Origin: Chromatiales bacterium
GTDB taxonomy: Bacteria > Pseudomonadota > Gammaproteobacteria > Chromatiales > Chromatiaceae
Reading direction: 5' to 3'
DNA: 64,000 nucleotides
Assembly (NCBI GenBank): GCA_028280505.1
Contig: JANQLO010000019.1
Coordinates: 1-64,000, forward strand
A model generated the notes under the pieces. The model was given only the letters and a program-made list of their open reading frames with translations. It had not been told where the DNA came from and did not search any database. Numbering within the stretch: position 1 is the first letter of the stretch; the number at the start of each line of letters is the position of its first letter. The position numbers were made by a program, and so were the translations under genes. Positions 27,571-37,319 of this stretch are shown piece by piece.

Positions 27571-28299
27571 CTAGATACGATGGCGACAGCTTTCATGGTC
27601 AGCCATCTGAGTCAGCGTCAATATCTGGTAACCGTTTGACTGAAGCCATGGCAGCACCTTCCGGAGAGATTCTGCTGCTCGCGTTCCTCTTCCTTTACCG
27701 TCGTGCAAAATTATGACGGAACCAGGACGAACAGACCAAGTGATGTATGCGTAGTGAAATCGGCTGGAATGAACCGCGTGGTCAAGCGGATAAATGTCGG
27801 CAAGCGCGATTTTGTAACCATGCAGCTCCATTGCCTGAAGGGTCGAGCTGTTGTACCAGCCTGAGCCGGGCCGAAGCCACTTGATGGCCGAGTGCTTGCT
27901 GAGCAGATCATGAGTAACAGATATACTCTCGGCCTGTTCATTGGGCGACAAATCGATTGTTGGTATTTCTCTGAATGTATGATTTCCTAATTCATGAGCG
28001 TTGCCAACGATATCTTCCAGCACGGCCAGATTCGCCTGCACTCTGTTGCCGATTAAAAAGAATGTAGCCCTCGCCTCATATTGCTCAAGGACCTCCAATA
28101 TTTCAAAAGTCGAACTTGGGTCAGGCCCGTCATCGATGGTGAGTGCAACCAACTTCTCGTCACAATCAAAGGAAAACGTTGCTTCTGGCAAAAGCACCGG
28201 ACCAATGCTCCGGACCACCCATGCACTGAACACGATGGCGCTGACCGAGAGGGCCATTGCTAAAACGCCTACTTTGGCGACCAATCCGGCGGTTTTCAT
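27571..28299 (-). CDS. Membrane-anchored NodB-type polysaccharide deacetylase
   Basis: A 242-residue protein with an N-terminal signal anchor and a NodB-homology domain (about residues 45-235). It would deacetylate N-acetylglucosamine units of a surface polysaccharide or peptidoglycan. Motif 1 is ALTIDDGPDPS (the DD pair), motif 2 is HELGNHTF with the metal histidines, motif 3 is LRPGSGWYN, and the late motif is IILHDGKGRGTR. I start at the ATG at 28297-28299, immediately before the hydrophobic segment; a start at 28365 would add 22 residues. It stands alone. A role in exopolysaccharide is only suggested by the PEP-CTERM genes elsewhere in the window. Confidence 0.85.
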   Translation of the reverse strand: MKTAGLVAKVGVLAMALSVSAIVFSAWVVRSIGPVLLPEATFSFDCDEKLVALTIDDGPDPSSTFEILEVLEQYEARATFFLIGNRVQANLAVLEDIVGNAHELGNHTFREIPTIDLSPNEQAESISVTHDLLSKHSAIKWLRPGSGWYNSSTLQAMELHGYKIALADIYPLDHAVHSSRFHYAYITWSVRPGSVIILHDGKGRGTRAAESLRKVLPWLQSNGYQILTLTQMADHESCRHRI

Positions 28300-28643
28300 T
28301 TTGCGCCCAACGCCAAAGCTATGGGGCCGAAGTGGAGACCCCAACCACCCGCAGGGTGGCGACATGAGCTAATTATCATGTTCATTTTTTCAGTTTCTTA
28401 TTTCCAGGACGCACTAATTCTTGGTGGACCACATAGACCTGAGATGCTTTCTTATCCAAAGAATCACGTTATTCGATCAGGCGGACATGATTGTGACGAA
28501 GGAACCCGGATTTCAAACCGGGCAACTTTTGCAGCGTCATCTTGGAGAAGACTGGCCCCGGTCCAAAGACCGGGACGATATCAAGTCGTGCACATCGTAT
28601 CGAGCCGGTCGAGCAAAACGACTGGCCCGATCGCTTCGAAGGT
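28300..28643. other. Intergenic region with two strong hairpins
   Basis: About 340 bp without a supportable gene. Two hairpins stand side by side: CCCGG-N8-CCGGG at about 28505-28522 and CCCGGTC-caaa-GACCGGG at 28557-28574. They lie downstream of the minus-strand phosphatase gene and could end its transcript, but no long U-tract follows on that strand. Confidence 0.4.
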
Positions 28644-30701: not shown

Positions 30702-31412
30702 GGATTAACCTCCACTGATGCAATCGTTGAATTTGGATTGACGTTCGCTTCGGCGCACTCTATCGATGCGGTCGACGACGAACGGGGTCTGAAGTTTCGA
30801 GACTAGCCCCGCCCCTGAGACCGTCTGATGAAATGCAGGTGAATGTTTGATTACCGGGAACGTCGATGATATGGCGCCTGCGGTATATGGAATACGGTAC
30901 CGGTAATGACCTACGAGGTAGCGTCGGTAAAGCGGGCAATCCCTCTTCTGCATCGTGGCGACCGCCGGATGCCTGACTTATAACTCCGCCGCCGGTTGTT
31001 CCTGAGAGAACATCTGCCGTTGAGCATCTTCATCGCATTGTTGGGGTTGCAGGGCGCGCGAGCCATCATCCGCCGTAAGGCCAATGCTTCGTCCATGCTC
31101 GATAAAAAGGCCCGCGGTTAAATGCGCGAAGCTTAATCACCGCGTCATACCGACTTCATCGCAAGGTCATATTCGTTGCGCATATTCGTCCCAGGATTGT
31201 TATCCCTCGGCTGCAGCATAACGGAATTTGACGCATTGCATTGCGACGTCGCTGTAACGTGCACCGATTGCCGGAAAAGATGACGACAGACTAGCTCGAT
31301 GCAAAAAAGCACGGTTGTCCGGCAAGTGCACAGGTAGTAGGAAAACTAGACCCAGCCCCCAGTTAACTCGCAATTACTGTTCGCCCGACAAGGCGATGAA
31401 GGAGTCATTCTT
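30702..31412. other. Long intergenic region between two phosphatase genes
   Basis: About 710 bp without an intact gene. It must carry divergent promoters for the two exported phosphatases. The only recognisable content is a degraded coding tail at 31064-31132, described separately. No Pho box was recognised with confidence. Confidence 0.45.
31064..31132 (+). repeat. Degraded copy of the 3' tail also found at 37241-37312
   Basis: This stretch matches 37241-37312 over its whole length with scattered substitutions and a 3-nt indel, starting with the identical CATCATCCGC. Translated, the left copy gives IIRRKANASSMLDKKARG and a stop, the right copy IIRHKATASLMPGKKKARR and onward. A CAA to TAA change created the early stop here. 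It is a remnant of a once-duplicated gene end of unknown type. Confidence 0.6.
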
Positions 31413-34943: not shown

Positions 34944-35357
34944 TTAAGAAGCTCCGGGTTGTTCAAAAACGGGCGATTTCTGTCCTTTTTCGTCCACAGA
35001 ACTACGGAACTCCGTGGGGGACAGTCCGAAGCGCTTACGGAAGTTACTTGTGAAGCGAGAGACTGACTGATAGCCGCATTCGAAAGCGACCTGGTACACC
35101 GGCTTGGAGGTTTGTAGCAACTGCATCAAACCACTCACAAGACGCAACTCGAACAGTATCTCTCTAAAACTGGTGCCCTCTTCACGGAGCTTTCGTCGCA
35201 AAGTGGTTTCGCTTGTCGCTAGGCGCTCACTGACTTCTCCAATAGTCCATTCATGGAGAAGATCACCCGACAGGATTGACCGAACACGCTGGCTCCAATT
35301 ACTGCGAGCGAGAGCGTAGGACATCAAATTAATGTCTTGCTCTACAAGTAAGAGCAA
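34944..35357 (-). pseudogene. AraC-family regulator, N-terminally truncated
   Basis: The 137-residue frame is essentially only the C-terminal DNA-binding part of an AraC regulator: two helix-turn-helix units (IGEVSERLATSETTLRRKLREEG and VYQVAFECGYQSVSRFTSNFRKRFGLSP). AraC-like residues continue upstream of the first ATG (RIFKHRLTEILLLL, to about 35395) in a frame that overlaps the end of the next gene and then loses homology. The effector domain is missing, so this is a truncated gene, joined at the break to another truncated gene. Confidence 0.72.
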
Positions 35358-35365
35358 AATCTCAG

Positions 35366-35770
35366 TTAATCTGTGTTTGAAAATTCGGGCATTCGAGACA
35401 GATTCGCTTCCAACGCAAGCAGACCAACAACGAACAAGAAAACGAGTGTTGCTGTGCCAAACAGTAACGTTTCATGGGATATGATAGTTTCTGTTTTGCT
35501 TATGTTTTCACCCTTCAACCAATAGTCTTTGTTGGGTAGATTGATCAGGCTTTTAGGGAGTTTTCTCAAGATTTTGGCGGAGAACAGAACCGACAAGAAA
35601 ACAAGCACCTGCACTCCTGCCATGATGGTAGCGTGAACATAGGATGGTGCCCAGCTATCGGGATTGCCACCTGATCCAAAATGGATGGCAACGGTAGAAG
35701 GCAAGATAAAAACCGATACGATAAGCAGGATGAGATTGGCTGCAAAACTCAGGATGAACGCTACTTTCAT
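35366..35770 (-). CDS. DUF1648-type membrane protein, C-terminally short
   Basis: A 134-residue membrane protein beginning with a DUF1648-like N-terminus (ILPSTVAIHFGSGGNPDSWAPSYVHATIM), then INLPNKDYWLKGEN. These are typical of longer proteins of about 160-175 residues. Here the frame stops at EANLSRMPEFSNTD, just where a final membrane segment would be expected, and the AraC fragment begins on the other side. It starts 12 bp after an attC-like site, as cassette genes do. Function unknown. Confidence 0.65.
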   Translation of the reverse strand: MKVAFILSFAANLILLIVSVFILPSTVAIHFGSGGNPDSWAPSYVHATIMAGVQVLVFLSVLFSAKILRKLPKSLINLPNKDYWLKGENISKTETIISHETLLFGTATLVFLFVVGLLALEANLSRMPEFSNTD

Positions 35771-35781
35771 ACTGTTTTCTT

Positions 35782-35842
35782 TTGTAACGCCGGCCTTAAA
35801 GCGTGCGAGGCACGAGCGTCGGTTTTGATGGCATCGTTACAA
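35782..35842 (-). repeat. attC-like site A
   Basis: A 61-bp imperfect palindrome bounded by TTGTAACG and CGTTACAA, with an apical GTGC-gag-GCAC stem. On the minus strand it starts GTAACGATGCCATC and ends GGCCGGCGTTAC. Site B (36591-36676) shares 13 of the first 14 bases and the GGCGTTA end. It lies between two small same-strand genes, with the downstream ATG 14 nt from its end. Confidence 0.6.
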
Positions 35843-35846
35843 CCAT

Positions 35847-36200
35847 CTATCGTCTTGGCTTTGAACTACCGTCCTCATCTACATAATCAGAAAAATCCGG
35901 TTTCGTAGACATACTGATTGGTAGTTTGTTGTCTATCACCATTTGAATGACTCTTGACGCTGCCGGTGGAGGCTCTCCTGCCGGATTCTCACGATAGTAC
36001 CAGACAACTCCGTTGCTATTTTTGGCTTCGGATAGCACCGACATTAACTCATCCGGGCCGATTTTCTTTCCGTTAAGCAAGACACTGTTTGTTGAAAGTA
36101 CACTGATTTTTAGTATCAATTCTTCTGTTTGCACAACGTTTTTCTCCCCGAAGACCAATGTTGGCAACAACAGTAATAAAACCACACCAAATCGTCTCAT
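35847..36200 (-). CDS. Small exported protein, ExbD-like periplasmic part
   Basis: A 117-residue protein with an N-terminal signal sequence (MRRFGVVLLLLLPTLVFG). The rest (ILKISVLSTNSVLLNGKKIGPDELMSVLSEAK, then VIQMVIDNKLPIS) has the length and pattern of the periplasmic ExbD/TolR fold, where a short strand carries a displayed N-G-K, but without the ExbD membrane anchor order. This is a weak resemblance. It follows the next upstream gene by 11 bp and is followed by attC-like site A, so both genes would form one two-gene cassette. Confidence 0.6.
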   Translation of the reverse strand: MRRFGVVLLLLLPTLVFGEKNVVQTEELILKISVLSTNSVLLNGKKIGPDELMSVLSEAKNSNGVVWYYRENPAGEPPPAASRVIQMVIDNKLPISMSTKPDFSDYVDEDGSSKPRR

Positions 36201-36211
36201 TTTTCTATACC

Positions 36212-36565
36212 TTACCTTTCACAGCGACCCACATTACCCAACCACCTGCCGCCTGAATCAAGACAGGCATCTTGATTGAGCCATTCCACAACGAAGGGTA
36301 CTGCCGCTATTATCAAACTGACTGTCACAATAGATCCAACGGCAATACGACCCACTTTTCGAAAACCCGCCAACCAGATGGCTACCGCAACGAGCAAAGA
36401 GGCAGTGCCGTATGCCAAATACGCAGCTGCAGTGTCTCTCATTACTTCTGACGCTTCATTGCGGAAAAGCTGTCCGCCCCAATACGCGTAAATGGCCCAA
36501 AGAAAAAACAGGCCGGATAAAACGCCTGCGATAAACAGCGCACTTCGACGAAACCACTTATTCAT
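36212..36565 (-). CDS. Small integral membrane protein, hypothetical
   Basis: A 117-residue protein with three or four hydrophobic segments (ALFIAGVLSGLFFLWAIYAYW, TAAAYLAYGTASLLVAVAIWLAG, IAVGSIVTVSLIIAAVPFVVEWL) and a C-terminal pair of cysteines (ACLDSGGRWLGNVGRC). No family recognised. The ATG lies 26 nt downstream of attC-like site B on the minus strand. Confidence 0.6.
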   Translation of the reverse strand: MNKWFRRSALFIAGVLSGLFFLWAIYAYWGGQLFRNEASEVMRDTAAAYLAYGTASLLVAVAIWLAGFRKVGRIAVGSIVTVSLIIAAVPFVVEWLNQDACLDSGGRWLGNVGRCER

Positions 36566-36590
36566 CTAGCCGCCGAATCCATTTCTTGGC

Positions 36591-36676
36591 ATAACGCCAA
36601 GCATAAGGGGCAACATGCCGCGCAGCGGTAACACGTCCCAATGCGCCGAAGGCGAACGACTGGATGCCATCGTTAC
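36591..36676 (-). repeat. attC-like site B
   Basis: An 86-bp structured element. On the minus strand it runs from GTAACGATGGCATCC to CCCCTTATGCTTGGCGTTAT, and has an internal CCGC-tgc-type apical stem around GCGCAGCGG. The 3' end resembles the end of Vibrio VCR repeats. The stop codon of the upstream gene lies inside its first bases, a common feature of gene cassettes. Confidence 0.62.
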
Positions 36677-37029
36677 GTGCATACGGCACGATGGTTCTTG
36701 TCCTTTTCAAACAACCTTGCTGCTGATTTCAGTATGGCCAACACTTTTTTCCGATTGTGTTTGCCGTTAATGCCCGCCGGCAATCTCGACTGCCGGGGTT
36801 GGAACTCCCCATGGTCGCCGCCGCTCGGACCCATTCTGGTTGAACCGCCATGCCTGTTTTCGAAGAATGCCATGGCCGCATACAGCTGGGTTAACGAAAG
36901 CAACTCGAGTCGAAACCTTCCTTGTTCTATGACAATAACCTGCCCATTCGAATCAGCGATTTCACCGCACTCCGGCAGGTGATTGCGGTGCCGTGATTCA
37001 TCGTAAGGCTGGCTGCATGCCTTGCTCAT
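36673..37029 (-). CDS. Hypothetical cassette protein
   Basis: A 118-residue soluble, charged protein (MSKACSQPYDESRHRNHLPECGEI at the start, LLSLTQLYAAMAFFENRHGG in the middle) with no recognised family. Its ATG lies 6-12 nt after the ACCTAAC/GTTAGGT core of attC-like site C, and its stop sits inside site B, so the whole segment has cassette layout. Coding status rests on that context. Confidence 0.55.
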   Translation of the reverse strand: MSKACSQPYDESRHRNHLPECGEIADSNGQVIVIEQGRFRLELLSLTQLYAAMAFFENRHGGSTRMGPSGGDHGEFQPRQSRLPAGINGKHNRKKVLAILKSAARLFEKDKNHRAVCT

Positions 37030-37034
37030 TTTTC

Positions 37035-37100
37035 ACCTAACGAATGACATGGCCCGCCCCATTGCCGGGCGCGCAGCGCCCGACGACAACGGGTGTGTGA
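37035..37100 (-). repeat. attC-like site C
   Basis: ACCTAAC at 37035-37041 (GTTAGGT on the minus strand) fits the integron core rule GTTRRRY exactly. A perfect apical stem CGGGCGC-gca-GCGCCCG follows at 37066-37082, the kind of central stem seen in site B. The opposite core (RYYYAAC) cannot be placed with confidence, so this end may be degenerate. Confidence 0.5.
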
Positions 37101-37125
37101 TTAGTCATTTGAAACGCGGTGAGCC

Positions 37126-37319
37126 ATGAAACCTGTCATCCGTGTCGGTGACGTGCACAGCAAGCCATCCTGACCGGGCATCGCTGCCGCCTGGCTACAG
37201 CCACCCATCACACCCGGCTGTCGCAAAAACTGGAATCACTCATCATCCGCCATAAGGCCACTGCATCCCTCATGCCCGGCAAAAAGAAAGCCCGCCGTCA
37301 AATGCGTGAAGCGCAATGA
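37126..37319 (+). pseudogene. Frameshifted PAAR-protein remnant
   Basis: The frame starts MKPVIRVGDVHSK, the typical opening of a PAAR tip protein of type VI secretion, but stops at 37171-37173. A shift of one base restores ILTGH, the usual continuation, and then a frame that runs to the stop at 37317-37319 (ending KKKARRQMREAQ). The hydrophobic-glycine PAAR core is missing. The last 72 nt are the repeat shared with 31064-31132. Confidence 0.55.

Follow-up and report, generated by a model that had tools for sequence, protein, structure and literature searches.

A small cluster of integron gene cassettes lying apart from the integrase gene in a genome of the Chromatiaceae

Within a 64,000-nt stretch of the genome of a Chromatiales bacterium (assembly GCA_028280505.1, contig JANQLO010000019.1, positions 1 to 64,000; the window), the segment 35366-37100 carries a row of small open reading frames (ORFs) separated by palindromic sites, which an initial annotation had compared to a cluster of attC sites lacking integron integrase (CALIN). 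All these ORFs read on the minus strand, as that annotation had stated, and the other elements of the layout it described are present in the sequence as well (Table 1). Sites A and B have in common GTAACGATG[C/G]CATC at one end and GGCGTTA at the other, the start codons lie close after the sites (5 nt past the core of a third site, C, 23 nt past B and 11 nt past A), and the stop codon of ORF a falls inside site B. ORF b is strain-specific, being present in a single one of 194 family genomes, its own. No match to ORF a was found in Pfam, NCBIfam, PADLOC or PHROGs. ORF b is an apparent small membrane protein and ORF c, which is separated from b by an 11-nt gap, apparently bears a signal peptide, judging from their translations; the structure prediction for ORF c was of too low quality for use. 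None of the ORFs a to c had a convincing homologue among the comparison loci collected, including the whole cassette array of a closed congener, while ORF d has a homologue of 45% identity in a Lentisphaerae contig in which no attC was found. The GC content of the cassettes is 0.43-0.53, compared to 0.575 for the window.

Table 1. Features of the cassette cluster and of its surroundings in the window.
Feature	Position	Strand	Basis or remark
attC site B	36589..36678	-	R1 and R2 covariance matches, identity to attCs elsewhere in the genome; between ORF a and ORF b
attC site A (short, 61 nt)	35782..35842	-	R2 covariance match; between ORF c and ORF d
ORF a (118 aa, cassette 1)	36673..37029	-	TAA stop (36673-36675) inside the R'' box of site B
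ORF b (117 aa, cassette 2)	36212..36565	-	ORF listing
ORF c (117 aa, cassette 2 with ORF b)	35847..36200	-	no site between b and c
ORF d (134 aa, DUF1648 protein)	35366..35770	-	PF07853, E 2.5e-8; after site A, no attC 3' of it
GTTAGGT, attC-type right core only (part of site C of the initial annotation)	37035..37041	-	sequence; no covariance match
Internally deleted IS110/IS1111-type remnant	37041..37232	+	left end, transposase start (MKPVIRV...), then a later fragment
Lone attC, R' GTTGGGC (missed by the initial annotation)	28305..28381	-	R2, 31.2 bits, E 4.5e-6
ORF after the lone attC	27571-28299	-	ORF listing; polysaccharide deacetylase-like by our own reading

The palindromes were searched with two covariance models of attC sites. 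Below, G000 is the genome under study, C63 its contig carrying the window and G008 the closed congener. Model R1 was made from 20 attC sites of the G008 array, with no window sequence, and model R2 from 32 rows taken from several arrays of the genus, with pairing of the R and L boxes and again no row from the window. The R2 alignment covaries in both boxes, with 28 cells of two-sided change where shuffles have 12.6, and the signal disappears when the partner is slid; a caveat is that R1, to which this alignment had been fitted, has a structure without these box pairs. Both models matched site B: it was the only place in the window detected by R1, which scored it at 28.0 bits (E 2.5e-4 over 218 kb), and R2 gave it 43.4 bits (E 1.4e-9 in 64 kb). 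Over 75 nt, it shares about 85% identity with attCs on two other contigs of the same genome, C79 and C67, which are included among the rows of R2 and absent from R1. Site A was matched by R2 at 21.9 bits, with E 1.5e-4 in an unfiltered scan of 4.5 kb, or about 2e-3 when scaled to 64 kb. In the R2 alignment, site A is paired at each of the 7 R-box positions and through most of its L box, and site B through most of both boxes. Moreover, R2 gave no match at E<=0.1 in six control stretches of about 100 kb (L024, L028, L041-L043 and L046). Sites A and B are 0.75 kb apart, and a CALIN consists of at least 2 attCs close together. These results support the comparison made in the initial annotation, and they suggest that the locus is very probably a small CALIN made of two cassettes, ORF a with site B and ORFs b and c with site A, moved by an integron integrase and bounded by an insertion sequence (IS) at the upstream edge.

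Several observations weigh against this interpretation. The R' box of site B, GTTATGC, is 1 base off the GTTRRRY consensus and that of site A, GTTACAA, is 2 bases off; GTTATGT and GTTATAT cores are frequent in the bona fide attC array of G008. The free-energy fold of site B differs from the classical attC hairpin, and a model attC is likewise non-classical. The fold stability of site A, which is short, is not unusual (z -1.2), and its sequence arms taken alone score within chance for 64 kb, while with the same stricter arm matrix site B was top in the window (28.9, compared to 26.0 for the best of 20 shuffles). In addition, no third attC is present in the cluster, the unfiltered R2 scan detecting none between ORFs b and c or 3' of ORF d, and neither excision nor an empty site was observed. 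Two other approaches were abandoned, since hand-written palindrome scans did not distinguish attCs from chance and a loosely trained arm matrix drifted.

Site A is thus a weaker attC call than site B, and one may ask whether only B is a true site, a lone attC, with A being a chance hairpin and ORFs b to d ordinary strain-specific genes. The weak fold score and the arm score of site A would agree with this. We consider it quite unlikely, considering the R2 match of site A in the region, the end sequence that it has in common with B, its correct placement between ORFs, and its opposite strand, which forms a single long hairpin closed by an outer stem of 8 bp (TTGTAACG/CGTTACAA).

Site C behaved differently. 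The initial annotation had counted it as a third site with an exact core; the GTTAGGT core is indeed there, but its identity as an attC did not hold, so that the covariance search on the minus strand proposed in that annotation recovered 2 of the 3 sites. Even the unfiltered R2 scan gave no match. Its hairpin is instead the left end of an IS110/IS1111-type element, now broken, that abuts the core. The stretch 37038-37147 is 78% identical over 110 nt to another contig of the genome (C44:81315-81423), and a second fragment of the remnant, collinear with the first after the deletion, is 72% identical over 75 nt to the same contig. At C44 the matching stretch precedes an IS110/IS1111-like transposase gene reading MNPIIRVDIDLAK..., which is frame-broken; with its two frames joined for the search, its translation matched PF01548 at E 1.3e-6, which narrowly misses the curated cut-off. 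No attC lies at the C44 copy. A former attC was looked for on the far side of the element and was unsupported (2.8 bits), its upstream half not being recovered. Near the remnant, we also noticed a 70-nt sequence (37241-37312) that occurs a second time in the window at 31064-31132, with 79% identity.

That the site C hairpin is an IS end, and that copies of the palindromes are dispersed in the genome, could suggest that the whole set belongs to a family of repetitive extragenic palindromes or miniature inverted-repeat transposable elements, or to a family of terminators, and has nothing to do with integrons. This is scarcely credible: the model matches sit in integron arrays adjoining integrases, and on the minus strand neither site A nor site B falls on a terminator-like match. 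A search of Rfam matched no family.

We also looked for an integrase and further sites in the rest of the genome, as the initial annotation had proposed. It had reported no visible integrase, which is correct for this contig and does not hold genome-wide. TIGR02249 matched on C71, C6, C24, C67 and C36 and found nothing on C63, and the match at the very start of C71 (664-1587), scoring 430 bits where the cut-off is 265, is a full integron integrase. The window cluster lies more than 35 kb inside its contig of 152,867 bases, away from that gene, and the CALIN label therefore fits, as there is no integron integrase on the contig. At E<=1, R2 gave 18 matches on nine contigs (C1, C3, C8, C38, C60, C63, C67, C79 and C83), of which the weakest could have arisen by chance; such matches stand at the ends of some contigs, as expected for a fragmented array. 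Within the window, R2 further identified a lone attC followed by the putative deacetylase gene (Table 1).

The closed genome G008 has a chromosomal integron of 222 attCs over 127 kb (C1:903272-1030118), all in a single orientation on the plus strand, beside a divergent integrase gene (C1:901425-902351, minus strand), and two separate attC clusters near 2.865 and 3.03 Mb. Since that genome is closed, dispersed clusters in the genus are not an assembly artefact. In G000, similarity of the left backbone to the congeners ends at about 27.39 kb, after the ribonucleotide reductase gene (nrdB side), and resumes on the right at about 37.43 kb (YCII/apr side). A DNA search with the region 27.4-37.4 kb found no match in eight congeners, several of which match its flanks. 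Together with the strain-specificity of ORF b, this absence is the typical appearance of cassettes. The initial annotation had named a lack of covariance matches combined with a stable gene order in relatives as evidence against cassettes, and the opposite was found in both respects. An AraC-type regulator ORF (34944-35357, minus strand) follows directly after ORF d; it matches only the C-terminal half of its family and is possibly truncated at its N terminus. An insertion of the cassettes into this ORF was not demonstrable, the relatives having no orthologue.

How could the cluster have formed? Each cassette would have arrived as a circle, through recombination by an integron integrase acting on the attC in the form of a folded bottom strand. 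The cassettes are now away from the integrase gene, and their excision or shuffling in trans may be possible if the C71 integrase is active. An IS110/IS1111-type element would have landed against the attC-type core at the upstream edge, possibly cutting a former attC, and later decayed. The history may nonetheless be different: part of the main chromosomal array could have been brought here by an IS-mediated or other rearrangement and be decaying since, which would change the path of the cassettes and not their identity as a CALIN. We hold this as possible but short of probable. The cluster indeed sits at the border of two conserved blocks, the nrdB side and the YCII/apr side, with the IS remnant at its upstream edge, and the ends of contigs C71 and C79 suggest that the main array is fragmented in the assembly. 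On the contrary, the downstream edge has no IS and the attCs of the dispersed loci are unlike one another. Neither path can be dated here, and rearrangement and direct insertion at a secondary site are inseparable because no empty site was observed in a relative.

The integron integrase of the genus is more unusual than the cassette cluster itself. Its gene in G000 (C71:133-1620) encodes about 150 extra N-terminal residues, which are predicted with good confidence to form four helices like a second core-binding (SAM-like) domain. This extension is common to 15 aligned loci from diverse bacteria (L047, L048, L056 and L058 among the carriers), and attCs lie divergently upstream of the extended integrase in several loci. 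The aligned family matched IntI4 (PDB 2a3v) at E 2e-128, with the extension falling outside the part covered by the solved structure. A search of open papers gave no description of such an N-terminal extension, though this does not establish that it is new. One could imagine that the extended integrase scatters cassettes from a very large array to secondary, attG-like sites and so seeds CALINs around the chromosome, an idea that we regard as doubtful. A further congener, G006, has besides an extended integrase a classical integron integrase of 331 aa (C91), which is accompanied by a small minus-strand array of its own.

These results confirm dispersed, integrase-less cassettes in a gammaproteobacterial genus in which a close relative has a very large chromosomal integron. 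As dispersed clusters occur together with a main array in the closed congener, the genus suits the study of CALIN origin.

The locus can be compared with several known systems. Insertion of cassettes outside integrons at attG sites has been described (Loot et al. 2024, as cited in PMC12901181 and PMC12444791); going by these citing papers, the cassettes of the window are likewise dispersed from their integrase, a likeness in position only, with no empty site. Certain IS1111 elements, such as ISKpn4 and ISPst6, are known to use one end of an attC as their target (PMC11187229), and here too an IS110/IS1111-type end stands at an attC-type core, but the element is broken, it is a single remnant and its C44 relative is elsewhere than at an attC. 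The array of G008, with its single-strand orientation and divergent integrase, is alike to the large sedentary chromosomal integrons of the Vibrio superintegron type, whereas the window cluster lies outside such an array and the integrase of the genus has its extra N-terminal domain. CALINs are a recognised class (IntegronFinder 2.0, PMC9024848), from which the present cluster stands out by having only two sites and one edge abutting an IS remnant. CALINs alongside a distant integrase in the same genome have been described in Xanthomonas (PMC12444791), and likewise here the integrase is elsewhere in the genome; the cluster is therefore a new member of the CALIN class, an ordinary example of these known dispersed cassette clusters.
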